From assembly GCA_037951105.1 (NCBI GenBank), contig JBAMJV010003332.1, positions 148,640 through 212,639 on the forward strand: a stretch of 64,000 bases of DNA, read 5' to 3'. The position numbers and the translations under genes are program-made. Shown in pieces: positions 9,226-33,900 of the stretch. Under the pieces are notes generated by a model. The model had not been told where the DNA came from. It did not search any database and saw only the letters and a list, made by a program, of their open reading frames with translations. Numbering within the stretch: position 1 is the first letter of the stretch; every line of letters starts with the position of its first letter. Source of the DNA: Echinarachnius parma. Its lineage: Eukaryota > Echinodermata > Echinoidea > Clypeasteroida > Echinarachniidae.

Positions 9226-9825
9226 TAAAACAGCATTAATTTCTCACCCCTCCTGCTCCACAGACATGGCACAGTGCCCTTGTTGCTGTCTGATGATGAA
9301 ACTGAGTTGACTGAATGTTTGCACGGCAATTAAATGTACACTTGAGTATTGGTACTTCCCGAAATGCCCCATGACACTAAATTGGTTGGTTTTAATTCCA
9401 TTGAAAGTTCATTGAATAAAACATGTGAAATGAAAATCATTCCCTTTCAAATGCTCTCATAGTTGTACAATTTAATTCCAAAATATTTTATTTATATAAC
9501 GTCTAGCCAGACGATATCTTGACTTTAAAAAAAAGGGACATATAGGGTCTACACTTCTTTCAAACAAAATCAAAAGAAGTTTTTAAATAGTTGTTGATGA
9601 TATCTCTATTTAATCATTATTTTAGCAAAACATCACATGCACAATTTTGTATGAAAAATGGTTGAAACCAATGATTTTTTAGAAAGCGCCCTCTGGTTGT
9701 CATGGGATATCTTTTGTTCCCTTTCATGAGAACAATTTATCAACCTTCGCATCAAGGAATTTCCAATCAATGTACACAAAAATAACAAGTAACTGGTGTA
9801 TTAGTCAGTAATATAAACTCAAGTA

Positions 9826-13297: not shown

Positions 13298-13375
13298 GTA
13301 CAGAAATGATGTTCACATGCTTCCGTGTTTCAGCTGACATCCAGTGATTATAAATCTTAGCATACTGATCTGTAC
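13298..13375 (+). ncRNA. Box C/D snoRNA, family B copy 1
   Basis: Terminal stem GTACAGA/TCTGTAC. Box C AUGAUGU at 13306-13312, D' CUGA at 13334-13337, C' GUGAUUA at 13344-13350 and D CUGA at 13365-13368. The D' guide TCCGTGTTTCA is complementary to 28S rRNA UGAAACACGGA. The fifth base from D' faces an A that by my count corresponds to human Am1310. It lies in the 5' UTR intron, sense to SF3B3. Its 5' flank is repeated before copy 2. Confidence 0.88.
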
Positions 13376-13648
13376 CATGGCCATAACTCAATTATAAACC
13401 ATTATGAGAACCATCATGATGGCTGATATACACACTGTATGTAGAAACGGTGCAAGTGCGCTACCGCACACTCACATGGGAATTAGATCAACAAATCTAG
13501 CGCTTTCATGGCCTCTTTGACATTATTACTGACATATTTTACTGGCGGCTTTCTAGCGCCAGACACTATGATTGTCGCCCATTGTGCGAGCCAAGAACAC
13601 CGCTATCGACAACCATTTATCGATTACGGAAAGTCAGTTACTGGCAGT

Positions 13649-13765
13649 CATTCTAAATTGGGGATAGGTCTTTGGTTGCAAGATGTTTCACTACTCGCTG
13701 ACACTGCAATGGGCCACAGGCTTCGTTCAATGCATTCTTGGCAACTTTGGTGGACACAATTAGCA
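13649..13765 (+). pseudogene. Decayed copy of SF3B3 first coding exon, upstream
   Basis: It matches the real exon from the 5' UTR segment (CATTCTAAATTGGGGATAGG) through the start region, with ATGTTTCACTACTCGCTG at 13683 in place of the true start context. Frame-breaking changes follow (GACACTGCAATGGGCCACAG). It ends where similarity stops near 13765. It is a tandem relic between snoRNA copy B1 and the functional exon. Confidence 0.8.
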
Positions 13766-13867
13766 CATTTCAGTGAATGTTTAAAGTTCCCCTCTAATAC
13801 TTTTCTCTTTACTGTGTCTTTATAGACTTACATCATTCTAAATTGGGGATAGGTCTTAGCCTGCAAG

Positions 13868-16800
13868 ATGTTTCTCTACTCGCTGACCCTGCAACGGGCC
13901 ACCGGCATCGTTCAATGCATTCACGGCAACTTTGCTGGAAGTAAGCAACAGGAGCTTGTGGTTGGCAGAGGCAAGATTCTTGAGCTGCTCAAACTTGATC
14001 CTAACACTGGAAAGCTGTACACAGTGCTCAGTCATGAGATCTTCGGCATCATCAGGGCTCTTATGCCCTTCCGGCTCACTGGAGGAAGCAAAGGTATGTC
14101 AATTATATTTTGTTAATGTTGTAAAGTCTTTGATTTATTTTGTACTCTTTCTTCCTTATTAAACTGCTGCAAAATATACTTTACCCCAACACTGGGAAGT
14201 GGTACACAGTGCTCAGTCATATGATCTTTGGCATCATCATGGCTCTTATGTCATTTAGACTCACTGGAGGAAGCAAATGTATGTCAATTGGATTGGAAAA
14301 GAGGCTGTAAAGTAGTTTAATTTATTATTCCTAAAGTATTACACTGCCTTGTAATATGCTTGACCCCTACACTGGCAAACTACACCATACTCAGTCATGA
14401 CATCTGTGAGTAATCAGGGTACTTATGCCATTCATACTTAGCAAAGGAAGCGAAGGTGAAAGAATTGAGTACAAAATTATCACCTGTTCTTCTTGTTAGC
14501 ATATGATTCTAGTCTTTCAATTGATTATTTCTGGAAAAGAATTGACTTGTATAAATACTAATAGAAACATTTTCAGAGAAAGTTATAGTATTTCCTCGGT
14601 AAAATTCCACACAAGCAGCTTGGACGTGTCTTTCAACAAAGTATTGACTACATCAGAACTTGATTTGATCTTCGGTCGTTGGGTACAGAAATGATGTTCA
14701 CATGCTTCCGTGTTTCAGCTGACATCCAGTGATTATAAATCTTAGCATACTGATCTGTACCATGGCCATATCTCAATTATAAGGCAAAAAAAACAAAAAA
14801 ACATGTTTAGCGTCCTGCTCTTTTGAAAAAAGGAAGGAGGAGGCCCTTTTTTTTTTTCTTCAAAATGGCCGACTTTTTTCAAAATGGCCGACTTTTTTCA
14901 AAATGGCCGACTGACTCATTTATCCAAAATAACTGGCCGGGCTAATGAGTCTATATTAAAAGTAAGATCTTTTTCAAAATCATTTTTTCCCCCAAAAAAA
15001 TCACGAAATTTACATTTTTTTCGGATTTTTCACAAAAAAAAAAAAAGAAAGAAAAAGCAGGCGGCCTCCAAAAAGGAAGCGGGCGGGGACGCTAAACATG
15101 TATTTTTTTTTTGGGGGCCTAAACCATCACAATGAGAACTCTGTGAAAGCAGTACTAATAAAGGGACTTGCCCATTTGATGAATGTCGGTTCAATTACGC
15201 AAAGTTATTCCTAAATTCTTGGATTATATTATTTGATTTTCTCATGATGTTCATCGTTCACATGTCTCATTTCTTCTCCTTTTCACAGACTACATTGTTG
15301 TGGGCTCAGACTCTGGAAGAATCATCATCATGGAATACAACGCATCCAAGAACTGTCTTGAAAGGGTCAGTAACTTTGTTCAAACTTTCTACCTAAACTC
15401 AATAAGTAAACACCAGTCTTGTGAGCTTGTGAGCAAACACTAATATCCTGTTACTCCTGATCTGTCTGGACCATTGCTGGGATGTGTGATGATGCCTTCC
15501 TGTCTTTTGTGAGCCTTGATGCTTGGTAAAGAGAGTCAAACATGACATGGCATGTAAACGTAGTTGTGTATCTAATATTGTTAAAGGTAATTGGTAAATA
15601 TGTCATTGATTGTATACAAAAAATATTGATGTGTGGGCAACAAAATACAATTCAAACAAATTCCTATCAAACTTTCACCCTAGGTTCATCAAGAGACGTT
15701 TGGCAAGAGTGGATGTCGACGGATCGTCCCCGGCCAGTTCCTTGCAGTCGACCCCAAGGGCCGTGCTGTCATGGTTGGAGCCGTAGAGAAACAGAAGCTT
15801 GTCTACATCCTCAACAGAGATGCCCAAGCCAGGCTTACAATCTCATCCCCGCTGGAAGCTCACAAGTCAAACACATTCTCCTTTCACATTGTTGGTGTGG
15901 ATGTGGGCTTTGAGAATCCAATGTTTGCTTGTCTTGAGATAGACTATGAGGTAAGATTTAAATCAGTGATGATTTTTAAAATTAATAATTAAACTATGAG
16001 GTATTAAGAAGAACATGATGCCCAGGCAGGCTAACTAAAAAAAGAGCTTCAGACTCCAAAATGTCATTTATTGCAAATGTTAATCTGCCATTGTCCATGA
16101 AAAGTTCTTATTTGTATTTGGTCAGCAAATTCTGCAAATGGGGCATCAAAATATGACTTGGTTGCACAATTGGATCACAATAGAAAGAAAGTTTATTTTG
16201 AGCCTTGCAAATTTAAAGATGTTTCTGAACGAACAGAAAAATCAACAGAGTTGTTGCTCAGTAGCACCGTTCTAGGAATGCAGAGATTTTGTGTTTTCTT
16301 TTTCATTAATGAAACCACTTTTTAAAATTCATTATTTTGTACAAGCTTATAAATGAATGATAATTTATCAATTTTCAGGATGCAGACAGCGATCCTACTG
16401 GTGAAGGAGCCCAGAGCACACAGCAGCTTCTCACATACTATGAGCTGGACCTGGGGCTCAACCATGTGGTCAGAAAGTACAGCGAACCCTTGGAGGAGTT
16501 TGGCAACCTACTCATAGCTGGTAAGCATTGCACAACATTTTGTTTACAAAGTGTGTACCACATGGTACAAACATTGATTTGTTTGCAACAGTTATAGTAA
16601 AAAGCCTGCAACATCTCACATTCTTTGAGTTAAACACGATTCAGGCTCGATGGAGGGGGTAGAATGGTTAGTGTTGCAAAGCCAGGTGACCTTTTTTAAG
16701 TTGATGTCATTCCCACTTGGCACAATTTTGTGGTTTGTGTACAAATCCTATGGAATATGTATTTTCAATTCTTTCTTTTTTCGCATAAGAAACCGGCCTG

Positions 16801-19800
16801 ATTAGGGTCGAGATGATTGTTAATGAAGTTATCAGAGAGTGTGGTGAATCCTTTACGATGTAGCATATCACTCAGAAATGTTGCTTTACGAATAAAAACA
16901 ATGCCCATGTTACTTACAGTACAGAGATGATGTTTTCATGCTTCCGTGTTTCAGCTGACATTTAGTGATTATAAATCTTAGCATACTGATCTGTACCCTA
17001 ATCTTTTCTTATCTTGGCAAACATTTTCTTATAAAAGTTCAAATTGAAGAAGTGACATTGCCATATTGCATGGTGTAGAAAAAAATGTATGTCACTGTTT
17101 AATTGCTTGAGATAAACAATACATATTGGCAGTTTCTCTAATAGAGACTGTTCGAAACAGAACATTGTACACATTGGGATTCACATGCCTGGCTAGTCAC
17201 TAACACTAGTAACAATTGACTTTGGGCAAGGAATAATTATTGAAAGGTTATTTTGGGTAGCCGATTTGGCCAGCTTGATTTTCAAACTGACTATAATAGA
17301 ATGAAAAAGTCTTGTGTTCTTTCAAGTAATTATGAGGCCGATTAATCTGTTTCAGGTTACCAGAAATTGATAGCAAATGATTTTACCGGCCTCAAGTACA
17401 AAGTAATAATGTGGAGACTTTAATTATGGTGCTGAAATTGTTAATGATAGAAGGGAAGGGTGAAAATAATGTAAATATTGAACTTCCTATTTCTTTCTTC
17501 TTTCATTGTAGTTCCTGGAGGCAGTGATGGACCGAGTGGAGTTCTGATCTGTTCTGAGAACTACATCACATACAAGAACCTTGGAGACCAGCCAGACATC
17601 AGGATGCCTATCCCTAGGAGAAGGGTATGTACAAGTCAAACTTTGTATGATTTTCACACTCATTACAAAAACTGAAAAAAATACAATGACAAACAATAAC
17701 TTGACAAGTTTCCCTTTACTAAGATCTTTGTAAAATTCTTCTAAATGCAGCTGTCAAGCTGCTATGTACTTTGAATAAAATTACTAACTATCAGGCAGCA
17801 GGCTGGTATGAATATAAAAATAACCCTTTAGTACAGAGATGATGTTCACATGCTTCCGTGTTTCAGCTGAAATTCTGTGATTATAAATCTTAGCATACTG
17901 ATCTGTACCCTAGTCATATTGATTCTTGTTTCAAAGAGGAATATTCATTTAAATATAGTTTTGTAAGTCAATGTTGCCGAGCTATCAAATCTAACAGATC
18001 CTTCATCTAGGCAATGAACTGACCACTAAATATAGTTTTGTTACAATTTATTTGACATATGATGTTATCTTTTCTTTTTCTTTTTCTTTTTTTTTTCTTT
18101 GTAGAATGACCTGGATGATCCAGAGAGGGGCATGATCTTTGTTTGCAGTGCCACACATAAAACAAAGGTATGTCAGCGGTCTGATTGTGAGATGTTCAAT
18201 AGTTATACTTGGTCTGTAAAACCTGATAAAAATGCAAACAAAAAGCATGAAATGTAAATACTTTGACACAGTCCCCGTCGCTTCGTCCATGAATGTTCTC
18301 AAGACGGGTTTCCTCTTGGCAATTATTCATTCAGTAAGCATTCATTAAGCATAGCAATGATGACCATTTATCTGTCAATCCACTGATAAATATGATGACA
18401 CCATTACTCACAATTTCTGAGCTATGCTGGCAAGTTTCTATATTTTATTTATCCTAAAGAATATTACAATTTAAAGAAAAAAAATTAGTCTGATGTTCAT
18501 CCTGGTGCTTTGGTGCATATTCCCAAAATGTACACCTCTTTTTATGAATCTCTATCTTTTGCTGCAGTCCATGTTTTTCTTCTTGGCGCAAACAGAGCAA
18601 GGCGACATCTTCAAGATCACCTTGGAGACAGATGATGACATGGTGACAGAGATACGCATGAAATACTTTGACACAGTCCCTGTCGCTTCGTCCATGAACG
18701 TCCTCAAGACGGGTTTCCTCTTCATCGCATCAGAATATGGCAATCAGTAAGTTGATGTTTTAACAAGAGTTTTTACAGCTATAGGGCAGTGATGATGATG
18801 AAAAAAATATCACCAATGCTACACATTTGAGAAAGTGTCGGCTTTATAAATGTTTTAGATGCTTGAAATGTCAGTCTTTTCACGATTGTAGCTGAATTAT
18901 AATGTTGTTTACTTTTTGAGCATGGTGGAGTTGTGACTATTAGTTTGTAATGTTATTGTGCAGGTTTTGGTTACTAAAATTCAGTTTGAACCAAAACTAC
19001 TCTACCAAAACTCGACTATCCCTTGACAAACCTAGTCAAAGCATTGATTAAGCATAGCAATGATGTCCATTTATCTGTCAATCCACTGATACATGTGATG
19101 ACACCATACTCACACAAGTTCTGAGCTATGCTGGCAAGTTTCTATATTTTATTTAATGGTGATGATTTTGACAGTTGTGACGGTAATGCTGGATGAGGAC
19201 ATTGATTTTCTAAACGTAATCCAGTGTTCCTGGGGGTTTTTTTCTTCATATAAGATGGAATATTGAAACCAAATGTTGTTTTCTACCCATAAGACAAGCC
19301 TCAACACTAACTTATTTTAACCGTTAGTGCAAGTGAAATCATACATTTTAAAATTTTACTCGCCCTCTTCCAGATTTTTATGCCTCCGCCAACGAAGTGG
19401 CCGGAGGCATTATGTTTTCGGGTTCGTCCGTCCGTCCGTCCGTCCGTCCGTCCGTCCGTCCGTCCGTCCGTCCGTACGTCCGTCCGTCCGTACGTCCCGT
19501 TTTCGTTCTCGCGATATCTCAAGAACCAGTTGACGGATTAATTTCAAACTTGGTATGAGTGAACATATTGGGGTGACAATGATCTGATTAGATTTTGGGG
19601 GTCATGAGGTCAAAGGTCAAGGTCACAGGACTCAATATATATGCAAAAATGCCTCGTTCTCGCGATATCTCAAGAAATGGTTGACAGATCAAATTCAAAC
19701 TTGGTATTAGTGTAGATATTGGGGTGGCAATGATCTGATTAGATTTTGGGGATCATGAGGTCAAAGGTCAAGGTGACAGGACTCAATGTATGCGCAAAAA

Positions 19801-22800
19801 TGCCTCGTTCTTGCGATATATCAAGAATCGGTTGACGGATCAATTTCAAACTTGGTATGAGTGTACATATCGGGGTGCCACTGATCTGCTTAGATTTTGG
19901 GGGTCATGAGGTCAAAGGTCAAGGTCACAGGACTCAATATGTATGAGAAAATGGCTTGTAATGGCAAAATTTCAAGAACTGAATGTCCGATTTCAATCAA
20001 ACTCGGTACCTGAATGTATCATAAAGAGTCAACGTAGCCATAAAATGTTGGGGTCATGAGGTTGAGGTCAAGGTCACGGGACTCATTATTAAGGCTGTTG
20101 ATGAGTCCCGGGTACCCGGGTCCCGCCGAAAAATGTCGAGTCCCGGGCGCAAAAATCGATACTCGATATCCCGAAAAAAAAGCAAAAAGTCCCCTTTTTG
20201 AACGCCCGAGTTATCTGCCCACTCTCATTTTCTTTTCATTCCTTTTTCCCTCTTTGCTGTATTTTAGAAGATGATTTATTGTTATAAATGCGCTGCATTT
20301 TTGTCACTTGAATGAACATGTTTTCCCAGCGGTGTGACATGCCTATATTGAAATCAACAAATGGATAAATTTCGGGTACCCGGGACTCGCCCGAAAAATT
20401 ATCGCGAGTCCCGGGTAGTAAATATACCCGAAATCGACAGCCTTACTCATTATACATGCAAAAAAGCTTGTAATGCCAAAATCTCAAGAACTAAATGTCA
20501 GATTTCAATCAAACTTCGTACCTGAATGTTTTTTAGGGAGCCATCAAAGATTGGGGTCATATGGTCAAGGTCACAGGACTCAAAATATATGAAAAATATT
20601 TTTAAAAATTAAATCGGTGCATGTTAATTTGGGCTTGATATTAAAATCGCGTGATAGCGGAGGCATAATTTTCGATTGCGCGCAATCGAAGATCCATCTA
20701 GTTAATTATCCACTGGAAAGTTATAACTGTACAAAGTCACTGCAATGAGTTAGCGAAAATCACTTTGCATTTCACTCATTACTTTGCCATATGGTATCCA
20801 TTTAACGTGAAATGTTCACACCTTACTCAGTGGACATATCAGATCACAACAATACACATTTTATCAACCATCCATCACTCTCCGCACAAGTATGTCAGTA
20901 AAGTTACTAGATCCCTTTAATTGAGCAGTTGCACCCCATCATTGTTGCAGCTACCTGTACCAGATTGCCCACCTGGGTGACGACGATGACGAGCCAGAGT
21001 TCAGCAGCGCCACACCCCTGGAGGAGGGGGACACATTCTTCTTTGCACCCCGCCCCCTCAGGAACCTTGTCACATTTAACATACAATTTTCACACATAAC
21101 TCGGTGGACATATCAGATCACAACAATACACATTTTATCAACCATCCATCACTCTTCGCACAAGTATGTCGATAATGTCACTAGATCCCTTTTAATTGAG
21201 CAATCCCACCCCATTGCTGTTGCAGCTACCTGTACCAGATTGCCCACCTGGGTGATGACGATGACGAGCCAGAGTTCAGCAGCGCCACACCCCTGGAGGA
21301 GGGGGACACATTCTTCTTTGCGCCCCGCCCCCTCAGGAACCTGGAGGAGGTCGACCAGCTGGAGAGTCTGTCACCAATCCTCAACTGCCAGGTATGGTAT
21401 TGTTTTTACGCCCCTGTCAGGGGTAGTCTTTGATAGGGATGTTGAGTCTTGATTGTCAATGACAATTATTGATATGATGATGGTGGTGGTGGTGGAGGCC
21501 GTGGCAGCGGCGGCGGCGATGACGATGGCAATGATTTTTCATGAAAGGTAAACATGCGTTTAATTTTGTATATGCATGGCAATGATGTCTATTATCTGTC
21601 AATCCACTGAATACATCGTGATGACAGCTTTATCACTGAGTTCTGAGCTATGCATATATGAATCACACTTGATGGGCCTGCAATTCTGGAGAATTAGCAA
21701 CATAAAGAAGCATGATGATGAATATGATGGCAACAACAATGCCTTAACGACATTGAATATCTTTAACTTACTCCAGTGTTCCTAGGTTTTTGTTCACATT
21801 AGATGGTAAATTTAAAGCAGCTGTCCATAAGATTGTAATGATTATGATCGACATCAATTATAGAACACCCATAAGACCATCTTCTTTTATTTCCATCTTT
21901 CTATAACAGATTGCCGATCTGGCAGGTGAGGACACACCCCAGCTGTATGTAGCCTGCGGGAGAGGACCAAGGTCATCCATGAGAGTTCTCAGGCATGGTC
22001 TCGAGGTGAGGGGTCATGTTGAAAGCTTAATAACAAAATGAGTGGAAGGTGTATAATCTTGTGTAGATTTACCTTTCACATTTAGAAAAGTAACCAATTG
22101 AAGAACTGTAACAATGTTTCAGTTTTCTTAATCTAAATTGATATTAGCAAGTCAGTAAGTAGCAATTTGTTCAGCATAGCAATGATGCCATTTATCTGTC
22201 AATCCCCTGATAACATGTGATGACACCCATACTCACGAGTTCTGAGCTATGCTTGCAAGTTTTTATGTAATCCTCAAATGTCTTTTTCAACATTAGTATA
22301 ATCCAAGAAAATTACTTGGCAGTTGTGGATATAGTTACACTGTTTATTTGATGAATCTGTTTAAATATGATGATAATATCGCAAACTTTAATTCAGATGT
22401 TTTATGGTGTGTTAATTCTGTTTAACTAACCCAGGTATCAGAAATGGCTGTGTCAGAGCTGCCCGGTAACCCCAATGCTGTATGGACTGTCAAGAAGAAG
22501 GCTGATGGTAAGATAAAATGGGAACACTACAGAAAAGAAGTGTGTGTTATACTTTGTAAAGAATAAAGCAAAAGTATGAGCCATATTGGTATAGGAAAAA
22601 ACAAGCAAATTTTAATGCTGAGAAGAAGGGGGGGGGGGGGGGCAGATAGTCGTGATTTAATCACAGTGTACAAATTATTTCATAGGACTTGTCAAACTAC
22701 CTAGAATATTTGATAATCTGCATTCACTTTTACTTACTGTCAGCCAGCAGGCTGGTGTGAATATTTAAAAAATACACCCTTTTGAGAGTACAGAAATGAT

Positions 22801-25800
22801 GTTTTCATGCTTCCGTGTTTCAGCTGAAATTCTGTGATTATAAATCTTAGCATACTGATCTGTACCATATTCATATAATCGATACTTGTATCAGAGAGGA
22901 ATATTCAATTAAATATAGTTTTGTAAGTCGATGTAGCTGAGCTATCAAATCTAACAGATCTTCATCTAGGCAATGAACTGACCACTAGATATAGTTTCAA
23001 TGAGTAATATTCAATGAAATATAATTTTGTTACGCTTGATTTGACATACGAAAGGTCACGTGACTTTGTAACTGTAAACCCGTCACAATAGACCAGTTCG
23101 TAGATAGCATATGGGACCCGGATATGGGTCGTTTGACCCCTTGACCATTGAATTCTACAATCATGGGTAGGATATAAAGCTTTTACTCTGTGCAGTCATG
23201 TTCAGAGTGGCAGATGGTTGTCATGGGATATCCTTTGTTACTTTCATGAGAACAATTGATCAACCTACGCAACAAGGAATTTCCAATCGATGTACTCAAG
23301 AATAACAAGTAAAGAACCTTATCCAGTCCTTTCAATTCGTTGAATGCCGCATTGGTACGATTGACCTTTGTATTGCGCATGCGCAGATTGTAACTACGAA
23401 CTGGCATATTTTGATCTCAAAAGATGCGTAAGACTTCAATGAAAATCTCATGAAGCGACACTGCGAGACATGAACCCGTTGCAGAATTATCACACAAAAA
23501 CTCAAGGGAGGGTGGATTCTATTTGTGTATATTTGGATATATTTTTGTGTGAAATGAGTTGTATATTTAAATAAAAATGTTGTAATAACTTGCGTTGCCT
23601 GAAAGCTTCTTGACAAAGCAGATGGTAATTGAATCTATATTGTTCACATCCCTTTCTGTTCACCAGATGAGTTTGGTGCTTACATCATTGTGTTCTTCGT
23701 CAATGCTACCTTGGTTCTGTTGAGGAAGCGACAAACTCTTGTTTTCCCTTAATAGAATAATGCCCACATTTATTAGCATTCAACATGAAAAATGAGATCT
23801 AACCCTTCAACTTTACTATTTTGCTTATCTTTTCAGATGAGTTTGATGCTTACATCATTGTGTCCTTCGTCAACGCCACCCTGGTTCTGTCCATCGGTGA
23901 GACTGTTGAGGAAGTGACAGATTCTGGTTTCCTGGGAACCACACCTACCCTCTCCTCATCCCTCATCGGTGATGATGCTCTCCTACAGGTAACACACTCA
24001 AATTCATTTTCAGGATACATATAGTAGCTGACTAGATCTCTTTATTAAGTTTTCATGGAATTGTTATCTCAAAAGAGATTGTAATGATATGTCGCTTTGC
24101 TATAACAACTTATTCACTCTACTCAATTGTTTTACCCTTGGAATTTACTTGTATTCTTTCCATCTGTTATTTTAATAGAAATTATGCTTTTGTCATGTGC
24201 ATAGCAATGATGTTTATATTATCTGTCAATCCACTGAATGCATTGTGATGACAGCTTTATCACTGAGTTCTGAGCTATGCACATGAATTACATTTATCAA
24301 TTACAAATAAAATAGTTCCATAAAGAGGCTCTATTAAACTCGTCAGTTCTGTTGCTTTCTCATTTTTCCAGATTTATCCCGATGGTATTCGTCACATCCG
24401 CTCAGACAAGCGTGTGAACGAGTGGAAGACTCCGGGAAAGAAGAACATCGTCAAGTGTGCAGTCAACCAGAGACAGGTCGTCATCGCTCTGACGGGAGGA
24501 GAGCTTGTGTACTTTGAAATGGACCCAGTAAGTTATTGTTTTGCACTTGTCCTTGCATATTAGCGGAATGGTAGGGATTCAACTGAATAAATTACGCCCT
24601 CCAGTGCTAAAACTTGGACTAACAAACTGATCTCGAGCCGTCATCTGTGATTCTTGTTTTGTAGGTCAAATTTGAGTGATATTGATTTTTATCCCTTGCA
24701 TAGAAATGATGACTATTTTATCTGTCAATCCACTGAATACATCTTGATGACAGCTTTATCACTGAGTTCTGAGCTATGCATGGATAGGAATCACTCACTG
24801 CACTTCTCATGACACAATAAATGGGATGTTTTGTTCTTTGAATTTCAATATTTTCTGTCCAAGACAAAAAATCTCTCTCAAGATGACTATGTTGTGGTCT
24901 TTGTACATCTAATTCTCATCCAGATATGGCTGGTAAAGTTTAACTTAAAGTAAATTCTTTCTGTCCTTTTTCTAATCCCAGACTGGCCAGCTGAATGAGT
25001 ACACAGAGCGGAAGGAGATGAATGCCGATGTCAAGTGCATGAGTCTTGCGTCGGTGCCATCTGGTGAACAACGTGCCAGATTCTTAGCCGTTGGACTGGA
25101 TGACAACACTGTCCGAATCATCTCCCTTGACCAATCAGTAAGTTATTGTTCTGTTGTCTTTAATTTAATGGTTATGGCTAACAATCTGCATGTATTGCTT
25201 ATTATGTGTAAATGATATACTTTTATGTAGTAGCCATGTTTATAGGATTTGTACTTGCATAGCAATGATGCTGTACTATCTGTCAATCCCCTGATGCATG
25301 TGATGACAACTTCACTTGAGTACTGAGCTATGCTGACTGATAATGTGTTTGCTTTTATTCTGTAGTTTGATATGTATACTCATTAATTAATAATAAGGAA
25401 AATCAACATTATTAAGAAGACTTATATAAAACTTGAAATAAAGCAATTAGAAATGATTTTTTACTTTGTTTTTCTCTATGTCAGGACTGTCTGCAACACA
25501 TGATTATATTAGTATTGCTGATTTCCATATCAGATGAAAAACATTGCCAAACAAATTAGAAACAATCTTTATATCTCTGTCTGTTCCACAGGACTGCCTG
25601 CAACCCTTGAGTATGCAGGCCTTGCCAGCCCCAGCCGAGGCCCTCTGTATCATAGAGATGGGAGGTACTGAGGCGAGAGAAGAAACGGGGGAAAGGGGGA
25701 GCTCTGGGGGTCTCTTCCTCAACATCGGCCTTCAGGTAAAGAACATTGATAACTCAATATTGAATTTCAGTTCTTCTTTATTGTTTATTCATAACAACAG

Positions 25801-27962
25801 CATGACCGTTCCGCCTGCTTTTGGCTAACAAATCTTACTGCGGGCAAACAAACCATGTATACAAATCAATTTTGGTGGCCCAGTTGGCCAACTAGCAAGT
25901 GAAAATTAAAGGTGGATCATTGCAATATGCTTTCATTTATTACAGCTTGTTGTAAATTATTCTCAAGATACAATATTAACATTTTGTGCTCTATGAATGT
26001 TTAACAAAGTTGATATTTCATTTGTGCTCAATTTTACAACTGGAACAATAGCCAGAAATTAACAGTATTATTGCTAAGCATAATTTTGCGGTGTTTGTAA
26101 CATTTCATTTTGTAGATTTGAAGCATCATGATCCAAACCTCACAAGCACTATACACTTGTGCCCCCTGTCTCTACCCCTACGCACCTTTGTATAATAAAC
26201 TAACACCTGCTTTTTAACTGCAAACCAGATGTGATGAATGCATGTACTCGCGCTTCGACTGATGGTTGACAGCCAGTGTTGATAACACGCATGCCATATT
26301 CTGATCTGACAAATCCTTTGTGATTTCCCAAGCACCATTTTGCAGAAAATGGTTGTACCCAATTTTGTATTCTTATTTTACAGTTGCCTACTGTCTATAA
26401 TTTGTAAATTAAATGTAAGGACCTGCAAATAATGTGTTAACAAACTTGTCCATTGCCATTTACACAAAAACGAAAGTAAATCACTCGACACATAGTAATT
26501 ATTACCTTCTGTGTGTGATACGTCTCTTGTTGTAGAATGGTGTGTTGCTGAGGATGGTGCTGGATTCAGTGACTGGAGACCTCTCTGATACCAGGACCCG
26601 GTACCTGGGTTCTAGACCAGTCAAGCTGTTTAGAATCAACATGCAGGGTTCAGAAGCAGTAAGTTTATTGATTTTAGTATATAAATAACTAAGCCTCCAC
26701 AGTAAATTTGTCCTCTACTGGCCTATTCCAGCAAGTAAAATCATAATTGTTTAAATTTTACTTGCCGAACAGATAATTTACTTGGCCACTTACTTCTTGA
26801 TGAGATTTAGATTGAAGGAATTACATTTTCCTCTTGTAGTTCACCAAAAATACATTTTCCTCTTTTAGTTCACCAAAAATTAAGTTGCCCCATCTGGCAA
26901 CCAAACTAGACCATTTCTGAAATTGTACTTGCCTGACATCAATTTTTACTAGCCCCGGGCGATCGGGCAGTTGCTAGTGTTGGGCCTGAAATAGCACGTG
27001 ATCATGCCTACAAGGAAATGTTTTGAAATGATTATAGAAATTATAATTATAATGAAGTATATTATTGATATTATTGCCTTCACTTGCCATTTGGCCAATG
27101 GACGACACATTTCTTTACCTGTAATGATCTGTTTCATTTGTTTTTCTTCAAGGTACTTGCCATGTTAAGTAGATCTTGGCTGAGGTTCTAGTTTTAATCA
27201 GGCCTCTTACTCTTGTCTTATGTGACATAGGAATATCCCCTCTGGTGCTAAAAATTAGACTGACAAACTGATCTCGAGCCTTGGAGCCATTGGTCCGTAT
27301 TCACAAAGGAGGTTTGTACAAACCCCTGTTCAAACCGCGGTTTACATCTATGGAATGCCAATTGTAAACTGATGGAGAGAGAATGTAAATTCCTTTACTT
27401 GTTAACAATGTTGATGGTACACATTCTCTCTCCATCAGTTTACAATTGGCATTCCATAGATGTAAACCGGGGTTTGAACCGGGGTTTGTACAAACCTCCT
27501 TTGTGAATACGGGCCATTATCTGTGATTATTGATTTAACCCCCCTAATTTTGATACCTTGCATAGCAATGATGACTATTTTATCTGTCAATCCACTGAAT
27601 GCATTTTGATGACAGCTTTATCACTGAGTTCTGAGCTATGCATTGAAAGGAATCACTCATTCTGTGAGTGAATTTCTATATTTTCTGTCCAAGATGCAAA
27701 CAAATCTCATTTGTAGGAATTTTCATCAGGATTTGTCGGAATCAATTCATATATTCAAATAAGATTTAACTTCCCAATAAATTTCTTATATTACAGGTGC
27801 TTGCCATGTCCAGTAGATCATGGCTGAGTTACTGGTATCAGTCTCGGTTCCATCTGACGCCTTTGTCTTATGAGACTCTGGAGTTTGCATCAGGGTTTGC
27901 ATCGGAACAGTGCCCAGAGGGTATCGTAGCCATCTCTACAAACACTCTCAGGTGAGTAAGAC

Positions 27963-27993
<31 letters not shown>

Positions 27994-30900
27994 TATGGAT
28001 GGATGGATGGATTGATTGATCAATTGATTGTACAAATCTGCAAACTTGAATAGAAAAGTTTGAATCGCAAGATGCATAGCCAATAGCAACCACACACTTT
28101 GATGCAAATATGAAACATAACTTGAAATATGATATTACTTTGTTTCTCAAGTATTGGTCAGTGATGTGTTTTTAACAAGCATATGTCTGAATATAATTGA
28201 ATGACATATATTTAGATCCTGAGACCATGTTTACACTAGGGAGGTATGTTAAGATGACTATTATCAACTCTGGAACCCTTTATCAAACTTCAATAAAACT
28301 ACACTAGTCACTAGCTTCAATAAGTTCAACATTGTCCTTCGTTTTACCTTCAGGATTTTGGCTCTTGAGAAATTGGGTGCCGTCTTCAACCAGGTATCCA
28401 CACAGCTGAAATACACGCCAAGGAAGTTTGCAATACACCAAGAGACCAACAGCATAGTGGTCATTGAATCAGACCATAACGCCTACACAGACTCTACCAA
28501 GGCACAGCGCAAGCAACAAATGGCAGAGGTAAACACAGTAATGTTGCTCAATGGATCACTGTTTGTTTAATCTTACATATAGAATAATTTACTTATTTGT
28601 AATAATATAAAAAGCTGTAATGCAATAAACATCTAACGGTACCAAAACATGGATGCTTTGCATTTACGATTTGTGTGTTTCATTTACTTTTGTTCTTGTA
28701 TTTTTATTAAAAATGAAAGAGAAATTAAACAAAATGGTCAATGATGTTACAAACAAGCATATGTCTGAATTTCATTTGAATGACATATTGGATGCTGAGA
28801 CCATGTTGATAATGTATTTTCATTTTAAGACAAGAACTTAAAATAAAATAAAACAAAATATTGCTGAAGAACACGTCTTGCAATACAGAGGTATTGGTTT
28901 AGATTTATTTTAATTTACTTCATTAACTCCTTGTCCGTTTCACGGTAGATAAATAATTTAGAATTCTGTTTTATAGTTGCAGGCAATAGATCACCAACAA
29001 ATATATTAAAGGGAAAATTATGAATGAAATACCCTTAGCAAAAATAGAAAAATAAAGTCTCTCGCATAATTTCAGGAAATGGTGGAAGCAGCTGATGAGG
29101 AGGAGAAGGAGCTGGCGGCTGAGATGGCAGAAGCCTTCCTTCAAGAGGAGCTTCCAGAGTCAACCTTTAGCTCTCCCAAGGCCGGAGCTGGCATGTGGGC
29201 CTCGGCCATCAGGCTACTCAATCCAGTCCAGGGCCAGACCCTAGACATGGTGGAGCTGGAACAGAACGAAGCTGCCTTCAGGTAGGGTGGAACTATTTCT
29301 CTCTTTATTATCCACCATCTTTCAAAACGTGGTGTCTAGCTTTAGTTTTACGTAAGTCAGAGCTGGCATGTGGGCCTAGGGTCATCAGGCTACTCAATCC
29401 AGTCCAGGGCCAGACACTAGACAAGGTGGAGCTAGAACAGAACGAAGCCGCCTTTGGGTAGCCGTAGGTGGAATTATCCTGTCTTTCCTTTCATCAATTT
29501 AACATTACATCTACCTTGAGTACACGCGAAGCTGGAGCTGCAATGTGGGCTTTTGCTACTAGGCCAGAGGGGTGTTGCATAAAGAGTTGTGATTAATCGC
29601 AAGTCAGAAAATGTGCACATTTGAGCCAATCAGATTTTGTGCATTTAGGAACATTTTGCCATTTTCTGACATGCGATTGATTACAAATCTTTATGCAACA
29701 CCACGTAGATGCTAGACACGGTTGTTGAGTTTATTCCCATTGATCAGCATTGCCAAAAGAAAGTTCCATCATCACCTCCAAGATGTTGCTACTGGTATAA
29801 TTTGTAGAGTGTTTTATTGTAAAGGTAATGACATTGGTCTATGATGTTAACATAACAAGCATATGTCTGAATCTAATTTGAATGACATCACTGGATCCTG
29901 AGGCCATATTGTCATTACCTTTGTAAGTGAAAGTTTGGTATATCTGCCCCAAATTGTAATTTTAGTACAATCTGTAAATGAACCTCCCAGGCCAGGAATT
30001 TGCTGTTCAGGACTGGTCCAGTATTGGAGCAGAGCATATTAAATATTGACAATAACAATGTTCTACGAAAGATCACATCTTTAACAGATTATGTCCATCA
30101 TCTATCCTTCTCTTTTACTCCTCAGCCTGGCGATGGTGAAGTTCGGCAACAGGGAGGGCGAGACCCATGTCCTGGTCGGAACAGCCAAAGATGTAACCCT
30201 TAGTCCTAGGACGTGCTCTGGTGGTCTGATCCACACATACCTGCTGCAAGAAGGGGAGGAAGGAACTAAGCTGGAACTGCTACACAAGGTAAGAAAGTCT
30301 TGTGATATTCACATTAAGATTCAACATGATCCATAGGACACAGGTGAAATGTGTGGGCTAGTAGAAATAGGCAGGGGTCTAAGGAACTAAGTTGGAACAT
30401 ATGTAGTTCATATTTACTTGATACAAGACCTCAGATCAAGTTCTATCACTTATACATCTACCAGTAATATTTTAGCAGTGATAAATTGTGGCGATTGGTT
30501 AGTAATTCCAGATTGTATTCTGATGTGGTCTATGATGGTCTTTTGACTAGCATATGTCTGATTTTATGTGAATGACATTTCAGGATACTGAGACCAGGAG
30601 TACAATATTCACTCCTAATCCTACATCAATGTAGTCTATGCTTGTGTTTAGAAGAAACCTTTTCCCTGATAGGCTTGTCAGACAAGGAAAAACAAAAATT
30701 TCCAACTGTGGCTGGCACCAAAGCAAGGAAATACAATGACAATAATCAGTTTTGGGGTTGCTCCAATGGGGATCTGACACAAAACTGTTGGAAGCAGTAG
30801 GCTATTTTTGATGTCTGCAATATTATAGTATCACTATCAAGGCTCCACTTATAGCCATCTTAACAGCCATTGATCACTTTATTCTAATTTTTCTTTTCAA

Positions 30901-33900
30901 TTCTTTAGACCCCAGTTGATGATGTGCCTTCAGCAATCTGTTCATTCCAAGGCAGAGTTCTTATCGGAGTTGGGAGACTTCTAAGAGTGTATGACCTCGG
31001 CAAGAAGAAACTACTCAGAAAGTGTGAAAACAAAGTAAGTTTGTGTGTATGAATAACAGTATTCACTTTGTGTGTGTGTAATTATCCTGTTCTTTATTTT
31101 CTGCAAGTCATTCATTACCCAGCAAAATAAAAATTAAGACTTATGAAGTTTTGCTGCCAAGGCTTCTTTATTTAAGTAGCATAAAACGAAGACAACCAAC
31201 ACCATATCTGTTACTTTGGGTTGCCCAGTAAGAAAGTAAAAACAAAGAAAATCAACAAATCTGTAAAAATGTGGATGTCCTCTCAGAAAAGTAAAATGTA
31301 GTATGATCGAAACTCACACATCTCACATTTGTTGGCCCTAGGCCAGGGGGCCAATGCTATTTTCAAACCCTGACTTGCAGATGTGATGAATGCATTTAAA
31401 TGCACTTTTGAAATTTCACAGCTAAAGGAAAATTTTGTGTTGATATTTCCAATTAACCAGTTAACCAATTAACGCCATTTTACTTTGGTCTAACATTGAC
31501 CCCACCTCTAGTATAATATTGGGGACCAGCCATGAATTTGCTAAATTTACTAAATTTAATTTTGTCACTCTTTTTGTACTCAGCACATTCCCAACTTCAT
31601 CACCAACATCATGACGTCGGGCAACCGCATCCTGGTGAGCGACGTTCAGGAGAGCCTTCACTTCCTCAAGTACAAACGCCTGGAGAATCAGATGGTCATC
31701 TTCGCAGACGACAGCAACCCTCGGTGGATTACGGCCACCTGCGCACTGGACTTTGACACCGTCATGGTCGCGGACAAATTTGGCAACATCACAGTGGTGA
31801 GTGTTATTCTTATAATAATACAGTGCTTTACGCTAAACACTGGCCCAGGGCCAGTAACATTTTTCTTTGGTGACTTGATCAAGCATAATAGATTTTTGAA
31901 TTGTCAGTGATAGAATTGTATTTGTATTAAATATGAAAAAGAAATTAAACAAAAATGGTCAATGATGTTACAAACAAGCATATGTCTGAATTTCATTTGA
32001 ATGACATATTGGATGCTGAGACCATCTTGATAATGTACGAGTATAATAACGAGTTTTCTAATTAATGGCACATTTCTGGGTGAATAAATGTGTGTTTTGG
32101 ACCACTAGGGATGGACCACTCGCAAAAAAAATTAGTAGGGAGCCTCGTTATTTAATCAAAACAGCTAATGTTTATAGGTAGCAACAAAAGTTGAATTTTC
32201 CAGTCTTTATGAGTAAAAAAAGTACAATTCTATGAGGAAAAAACAGAGTGACACTTATTTTATGTTTGATTTGTTCCACAGCTAAGATTGCCAGCAAATG
32301 TGAACGACAATGTGGACGAGGATCCAACGGGTGTGAAAGCGCTCTGGGATCGCGGTCTGCTCAACGGAGCGTCACAGAAGACGGACATCGTCTCAAGTTT
32401 CTTTGTCGGAGAGACGGTTCTCTCGCTTCAGAAGGCAACGCTCATTCCCGGTGGCTCCGAATCAGTTGTGTACACAACACTGTCGGGAGCCATTGGTGTA
32501 CTAGTGCCATTCACATCACACGAGGTTAGCACCTGTCATTTCTCATATTTTTTGTCTCTGATCAAACTGTGCTTTCAGATTAGTAGTTGTCGTTACTTTT
32601 GTAAGCTTAAAGGGATCTAGTAACTTTGTTGACATGTGCAAAAAGTGATGAATGGTTGATGCAATGTATATTGTTGTTATCTTATATGTCCACAGGGTAT
32701 TGTGTGAAAATTTCAAGTCAAATGGACATTGTATGGCCAAGTAATGAGTGAAAATGCAAAGTGATATTCAGTAACTTCAGTAACTCACTTTGTACACGGA
32801 AGAAAAACTCGCCCAGAGTTTTTCTTATCTAAATACTTCAATCATACATATCTTTGTAACGAAAGGGAAATTTGAAAAACCGAAACCGGTCTCATGATTT
32901 TATTGTTAATACGAATACAACAAGGTATAAGGGAACCGCTAGAATTAAAATTTTATTTTTAGGACTTGGACAATGTTACTAAGTCCCTTTAAAGGGGTAG
33001 TTCAGTTTTGGTATAGAGGGCGCTGCACAATATAATTTTTTGTAAGATAATGTAAAACTGAGTGTAAAATTCGAAAGAGCATACAATTGTAATGGCTGAA
33101 TAAACTTTATTTGATCAAAATCGGTTCAGAAACGGCTGAAATATCAATAAATATATCTGATCATAATAAATCTGGGCCCCAGATTTATTCGATGATTTAA
33201 ACAAATTATTTTAAAATGTTTACACTTTTTCGAAAATTTTCAACAGGTTTTTAAATAGTTGTTGATGATCTCTCTATTTATTCATTATTTCAACAAAACA
33301 TTACATGCATAATTTTGTATGAAAAATGAAACCAATGCTTTTTTAGAAAGCGCCCTCTTGCATTTTAATGGCTCTTTTCAATAATAACAGGGTCTTTACT
33401 TAGTCGTTTGTAATTTTCTATACCTGTTGAGCATGGTGGAGTTATAAAGTATTAGTTTGTAATGTTATTGTGCAGGTTTTGGTTACTAAAGCTCGGCCTC
33501 ACCAAAACTGTCCTACCCCTTTAAGGAAACATTTTAAACATAAACAAATCAATGTGACAAGATTAAAACTCAATGTTCTTGAGAAACGTTTTATCAGTAG
33601 GAAACGTTTTATCAGTAGCATGGCAGTGATGGTTCTATTTGATCGTATATTCATCTGATACACCATGATGAACCTTCAGTTCTGAGCTATGCAGAAGAGG
33701 AAATATCTTGGGCTGTACTAATGCAGCACATCTTGATCATTACAGGGCTGTATGCTAAAAAACTGTCCTAGGACCAGTGACATTTTACTTCAGGCCAGCA
33801 AAAATGTATAAAAGTCATAATTTGATGGTCTGATCAGTTCTAGATTTTAGATTTTAATTGAGAAACTGATATCAACACTGTGATGTTTGAGACTTCAATC

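Follow-up and report, generated by a model that had tools for sequence, protein, structure and literature searches.

How does one protein-coding gene come to hold a box C/D small nucleolar RNA (snoRNA) in most of its introns, and what might the copies do? This question is raised by a 64-kb stretch of the echinoid Echinarachnius parma genome (GenBank assembly GCA_037951105.1, contig JBAMJV010003332.1, positions 148,640 to 212,639; hereafter the window), which carries the gene of the SF3b splicing-factor subunit SF3B3. A preliminary description, made from the letters of the window, had placed nineteen box C/D elements in this gene. The analysis reported here makes it very probable that each element is a box C/D snoRNA gene encoded in an intron of its own and that these genes multiplied inside SF3B3 by intragenic duplication.

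Box C/D elements in the SF3B3 introns

The window lies on contig C3331 of the 1.2-Gb assembly. The COX1 gene of this animal contains in-frame TGA codons; translated with the echinoderm code it gives a complete protein that is close to sea urchin COX1, in line with a probable sea urchin source. Its host gene is SF3B3, with a predicted full-length coding sequence: a spliced model of 25 coding exons on the plus strand (13868-36140) gives a product of 1219 residues, which phmmer aligned from end to end (residues 1-1219) with residues 1-1217 of SF3B3 in PDB entry 5o9z (2299 bits), in agreement with the earlier assignment. The model consists of a 24-exon splice model and a last exon (36096-36140, including the stop codon) that was read by motif. 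We count 25 introns, namely 24 coding introns and one inferred intron in the 5' untranslated region (UTR), the upstream exon of which was not seen.

A strict scan, which asked for C and D boxes closed by a terminal stem of at least 5 bp, recovered 19 sense-strand elements in 19 introns (UTR, 1, 4-13, 15-19, 21 and 22), all of them at the places given in the preliminary description and one per intron. When a D' box was required as well, the 25 introns yielded 19 sense and no antisense elements; 200 dinucleotide shuffles averaged 0.13 elements and never exceeded 2. The C box matches at least 6 of 7 positions and the stem reaches at least 5 bp in every one of the 19; a CTGA D' box is likewise present in all, and the best C' box matches 6-7 of 7 positions in the 14 members of the families termed A and B below. 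Over the whole 64 kb, the strict scan returned 22 plus-strand hits, consisting of the 19 elements, a duplicate hit in intron 12 and two hits lacking a D' box (12986 and 18795), together with two minus-strand hits, one of which has an internal CTGA and lies within exon 22 (32428). The two hits lacking D' and the two minus-strand hits were set aside from the tally.

With looser settings the scan returned 28 sense hits inside the gene (the 19 elements, one duplicate, one element in intron 14 and seven others), as well as six plus-strand hits outside the gene and seven minus-strand hits. Introns 2, 3, 20, 23 and 24 contained no element even at this setting. Given these extra hits, it is only under the strict criteria that no intron holds two elements, as stated earlier; loose matches are weak by themselves, so that the intron 14 element needed other support.

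Families and predicted ribosomal RNA targets

The elements form families of nine (B), five (C) and five (A) members, plus the single element of intron 14. The three families of the preliminary description were recovered in these sizes, except that the intron 22 member of the nine has a different D' guide. All copies lie on the plus strand. Those of family A, identified by the strict scan and by D' guide pairing, are found in the UTR intron (13298-13375) and in introns 1 (14683-14760), 4 (16919-16996), 5 (17831-17908) and 10 (22788-22865). Family B, of SNORD110/snoR14 type, occupies introns 6 (18349-18427), 7 (19052-19131), 8 (21574-21653), 9 (22174-22252), 11 (24199-24280), 12 (24698-24779), 13 (25257-25333) and 15 (27560-27641), where strict scan, Rfam and guide pairing agree, and has a divergent member in intron 22 (33618-33692). 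Family C, of SNORD27 type, is found in introns 16 (28155-28227), 17 (28734-28804), 18 (29835-29906), 19 (30526-30596) and 21 (31955-32025), each copy being found by the strict scan, by Rfam below its gathering score and by a family C covariance model, and all but that of intron 19 being supported by guide pairing.

An Rfam search of the 19 intervals, suggested in the preliminary description, gave matches for families B and C that for the most part stayed below threshold. SNORD110 and snoR14 (RF00610 and RF01280) matched eight of the nine B elements (32.8-44.2 bits, E 2e-06 to 3e-03), mostly below the gathering score, and SNORD27 (RF00086) matched all five C elements (39.7-47.4 bits, E 9e-06 to 7e-04), below its gathering score of 52. 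A single one of 20 elements, the intron 7 copy, passed its gathering score (snoR14 at 19055, 41.5 against 40). SNORD33, first considered for family B, was dropped since Rfam gave SNORD110/snoR14 instead, and SNORD111 (RF00611) reached at best 29.4 bits against a gathering score of 46 (E 0.17) at a place that SNORD110 explains better. A covariance model of eight B copies, that of intron 6 among them, found those eight and then the intron 22 element (37.2 bits, E 3e-06), which keeps the B stem and boxes around a different D' guide and so leaves the SNORD110-type guide in eight copies. Its weaker hits fell, at 26-29 bits, on all A copies but one and, at E near 0.8, on two C copies, and all 15 hits were sense elements already in our list. 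The family C model found its own five copies and two weak matches elsewhere (E 0.055 and 0.88). Judged on sequence, the identity of these elements as C/D snoRNAs and their counts are well supported.

According to established snoRNA biology, the spliced and debranched intron would be trimmed down to the snoRNA, which would bind fibrillarin, NOP56, NOP58 and 15.5K and direct 2'-O-methylation of ribosomal RNA (rRNA) at the nucleotide that pairs with the fifth base upstream of D'. Targets were searched for in ten contigs, comprising the partial ribosomal DNA (rDNA) of the animal together with microbial and viral contigs that carry eukaryotic rRNA; complete 18S and 28S sequences of the animal itself were not found in the assembly, where its rDNA is partial, so that targets outside conserved sites may be missed. 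Significance was measured against 1500 shuffled guides, using sites common to at least two rRNA contigs (shared sites). The D' guide matched rRNA over 11-12 bp in 17 of the 19 elements (A 5/5, B 8/9, C 4/5), with shared-site p values of 0.0027 for family A (5/5), 0.017 for B (8/9) and 0.011 for C (4/5). The family A guide pairs over 12 bp, one of them G-U, with 28S TTGAAACACGGA, present in eight of the ten contigs including the partial rDNA of the animal. The family B guide forms 12 bp with 18S GGATTGACAGAT in a single contig; at a site that two contigs have in common it forms 11 bp, one of them G-U. In family C, four of the five copies form 11 bp with 18S CATATGCTTGT, at a site common to two contigs. 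The nucleotides predicted to be methylated are the second A of 28S GAAACACGG for family A (five copies), a uridine in 18S AGGAUUGACAGA for family B (eight copies) and an adenosine in 18S CAUAUGCUUGU for family C (4/5 copies), the last of which we take to be human A27. Human SNORD110 is assigned to 18S U1288 and hosted by NOP56 (PMC5025248).

The two remaining D' guides are those of intron 22, the rRNA match of which does not exceed chance (shared-site p 0.088), and intron 19, which has a mismatch to 18S and did not pass the shared-site test; the family C guide is identical in the other four copies, and the intron 19 copy is possibly decaying. At shared sites, pairing of the stretches before D mostly does not exceed chance, the lowest p being 0.047 (intron 13). 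Pairings of 12 bp before D in intron 6 (to contig L040) and in intron 9 (to part of contig L017) did not recur in a second contig, and in family A this stretch is invariant in all five copies, yet no target for it was found in the rRNA contigs used. We compared the variability of guide columns with that of the other inner columns by a test that treats columns as independent. In family B (eight copies), none of the 12 guide columns is variable, compared with 27 of 41 others (P 3.6e-05); the figures for family C are 2 of 12 and 18 of 36 (P 0.042). Within B, 10 of 12 columns are variable before D and 0 of 12 before D'. By this contrast, families B and C have the look of single-guide RNAs under constraint from their D' function.

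The element of intron 14 (26226-26308, plus strand), found by the looser scan with a stem of 4 bp, is a candidate twentieth C/D snoRNA of a fourth family. Support for it comes from another genomic site, on contig C7671, that keeps the C box, the D' guide core and the D' box, its stem, as judged by eye, being different. Rfam gave no snoRNA match at either site; the intron 14 guide pairs over 12 bp with one 28S contig and over 11 bp with another, and fails the stricter test of a site common to two rRNA contigs. A segment of intron 20 (31378-31445, plus strand) shares 18 identical bases with the intron 14 kind over stem and C box, at a local score of 23.5 against a best of 20.0 in 300 shuffles, and is a probable decayed relic of such an element.

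Sequences resembling rRNA were also seen apart from complete rDNA. A stretch of about 43 nt that resembles 18S around the target of family B occurs at five places, L018-L021 (C99:58126, C472:184733, C5479:89902 and C8940:21824) and L022 (C11412:23417, minus strand), which look like a transposon-borne 18S piece. L017 (on C10537) has about 1.2 kb of 18S without inner parts and one 28S stretch present twice, and is apparently a shortened, broken rDNA copy.

Probable duplication within the gene and competing explanations

Mean pairwise identity inside the elements is 94.9% in family A, 84.0% in B and 81.7% in C, and flanks average 57-62%, compared with 56.9% for random pairs; conservation is thus better than in the flanking intron, and the refuting outcome that the preliminary description had named for this comparison did not occur. 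Beyond the elements, similarity extends into intron blocks shared by five pairs of introns: UTR/1 (90% over 154 nt), 5/10 (89% over 269 nt), 6/7 (93% over 118 nt), 12/15 (94% over 113 nt) and 17/21 (96% over 122 nt). An assembly artefact was considered for the near-identical UTR and intron 1 copies and rejected, since their similarity stops outside the 154-nt block.

The introns also contain partial copies of exons 1, 7, 8, 11 and 18, all on the plus strand. They derive from the start of exon 1 (13648-13754, 90% over 107 nt), the end of exon 1 (several copies in intron 1, 14178-14457, 72% over 290 nt), exon 7 (intron 6, beside its snoRNA, 18256-18317, 95% over 62 nt), the start of exon 8 and the sequence just upstream of it (intron 7, 20799-21067, 92% over 270 nt), the start of exon 11 (intron 10, 23664-23720, 91% over 57 nt) and the end of exon 18 (intron 18, 29334-29486, 82% over 154 nt). 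A short partial copy of exon 16 was noted by eye near 27153. In intron 6, the exon 7 fragment stands directly before the block that matches intron 7 including its snoRNA, an arrangement that fits a tandem duplication of exon 7 and intron 7 followed by a deletion. We therefore favour an origin of the copies by duplication within SF3B3, with conversion possible at a later stage. Intron 15 also holds a long inverted repeat (27350-27500), the minus strand of which is matched by microRNA families below threshold.

As to function, the set most likely raises or buffers guide dosage, with some copies drifting. It is possible, though we consider it unlikely, that most copies are a neutral side effect of duplication within the gene, the working snoRNA being made by one or two members of each family and the others being unexpressed, slowly decaying pseudogenes. 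The partial exon copies, which show that segments of SF3B3 duplicate often, would suit this explanation, as would the lack of the family guide in intron 22, the guide mismatch in intron 19 and the relic in intron 20; many annotated snoRNA copies are moreover reported to be unexpressed in the species studied (PMC11028025). It is at odds with the identical D' guide core, D' box and D box in all eight B copies (intron 22 aside) and all five A copies, with the stem of at least 5 bp in 19 of 19 elements (itself a scan condition) and with flanks that are near the random level outside the shared blocks.

Improbable in our view is that gene conversion, rather than selection on the guides, keeps the copies alike, in which case their similarity would be no sign of use. 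The closest pairs do share flanking blocks of 113-269 nt, and three of these five pairs (5/10, 12/15 and 17/21) join non-neighbouring introns, but under conversion alone the guide would not be expected to stay constant in a molecule whose stretch before D changes, as is seen in family B (0/12 against 10/12 variable columns). That the elements act in cis on SF3B3 splicing and tune their own transcript, as SNORD86 does for NOP56, is very improbable: the host encodes an SF3b subunit and regulation by an intronic C/D snoRNA is described for NOP56/SNORD86 (PMC11028025), but 17 of the 19 D' guides match rRNA and the distances of the copies to the splice sites vary.

Several observations weigh against the main reading of intron-encoded C/D snoRNA genes multiplied within SF3B3. 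Family A, for which Rfam gave no confident match (best SNORD73, E 0.86), has a guide whose conservation does not significantly exceed that of the remaining inner columns (0/12 against 6/36 variable, P 0.16). This guide pairs with the same 28S stretch as U18, but 3 nt off the register that would put the U18 site at the fifth base. Since the register differs, U18, considered for this family, is retained only in the sense of the same 28S stretch; the U18 family was absent among the Rfam matches listed. The stem of family B is nearly invariant, so that covariation says nothing, and family C has a weak C' box (4 of 7 positions in all five copies). In the six elements tested, folding energies do not stand out (z -0.1 to -1.6). 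Finally, the distance between copy and 3' splice site ranges from 90 to 2093 nt in the 19 copies, compared with a spacing of about 70 nt given as optimal (PMC1821038).

Published precedents and other copies in the genome

SF3B3 is a recurrent snoRNA host, recorded in Drosophila, zebrafish, chicken and macaque, with duplications suggested in the fly (PMC12309372, SnoBIRD). The Drosophila gene resembles the present one in carrying several intron-embedded C/D snoRNAs, but has six of these and three H/ACA snoRNAs, whereas we count 19-20 C/D elements (H/ACA snoRNAs were searched for with Rfam only). Introns 3 and 6 of chicken SF3B3 carry HBII-82/SNORD111B (PMC2653536); the copies here belong to families other than SNORD111 (SNORD110/snoR14, SNORD27 and a 28S guide). 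C/D families multiplied within one host gene, one per intron, have also been described (PMC8178906, PMC1821038, PMC11028025), so that, with SF3B3 hosting and multiplication in cis both in print (PMC12309372, PMC8178906), the novelty of such an expansion is smaller than the preliminary description supposed. In chicken, U18 copies occupy RPL4 introns 2, 5 and 6 (PMC2653536), and there are human families too (PMC8178906); as here, copies of one family lie in the introns of one gene, which is ascribed to recombination in cis, but the present set comprises 9+5+5 copies of three families in one protein-coding gene, with partial exon copies visible. The Drosophila gene mfl/Nop60B, which also encodes an RNA-processing protein, carries one C/D snoRNA in four copies, each in a separate intron (PMC1821038); these are fewer, lie in 3'UTR introns and keep a distance of about 70 nt to the 3' splice site, whereas the SF3B3 copies are gene-wide and at least 90 nt away. 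The SNORD115/116 tandem arrays likewise consist of many similar C/D copies (PMC11028025), but their host is non-coding (PMC5748676), in contrast to the conserved coding host here, most of whose guides match rRNA.

No description of an echinoderm SF3B3 snoRNA locus was found in a literature search that left most subscription journals outside its coverage, and what appears to be new is the copy number, the families and the animal. A very large snoRNA copy set in one protein-coding gene, where incomplete copies of nearby exons can still be recognised, makes the locus suitable for watching a snoRNA family grow within its host and for asking whether extra copies serve dosage.

Copies elsewhere were sought by genome-wide DNA searches, which score the best candidates only, so that diverged copies elsewhere are possible. 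Among the matches listed, all five places of family A and all eight of family B lie in SF3B3, as do all eight sites of the exact family B guide with its D' box (none in a reversed control), and the intron 22 element was found only at SF3B3. Family C has four of its five listed places in SF3B3 (the intron 19 copy was not listed) and the fifth on contig C10413. The apparent dependence of two guides on one host gene offers a testable link from a splicing factor to rRNA modification. For the coupling of guide output to splicing of the SF3B3 transcript itself, put forward in the preliminary description, the evidence obtained is co-location. A stronger form, in which SF3B3 is the sole genomic source of at least two rRNA methylation guides, delivered in bulk by its introns, and the amount of its spliced transcript sets ribosome methylation, for instance in the egg, has in our estimate a slim chance of being correct.

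The SNORD27-type copy on C10413 keeps the guide and has a different, long stem that is still paired. It belongs to a separate multi-snoRNA stretch on the minus strand (L028:798-868, 1610-1710 and 9383-9461; L029:2371-2748), in which SNORD14, a SNORD31-like match (37.7 bits, with a gathering score of 40) and a reading frame also occur, the frame being RPS12-like to judge by its translation. An open reading frame of 571 residues at L029:6683-8398 looks, on reading, like a piggyBac-type transposase.

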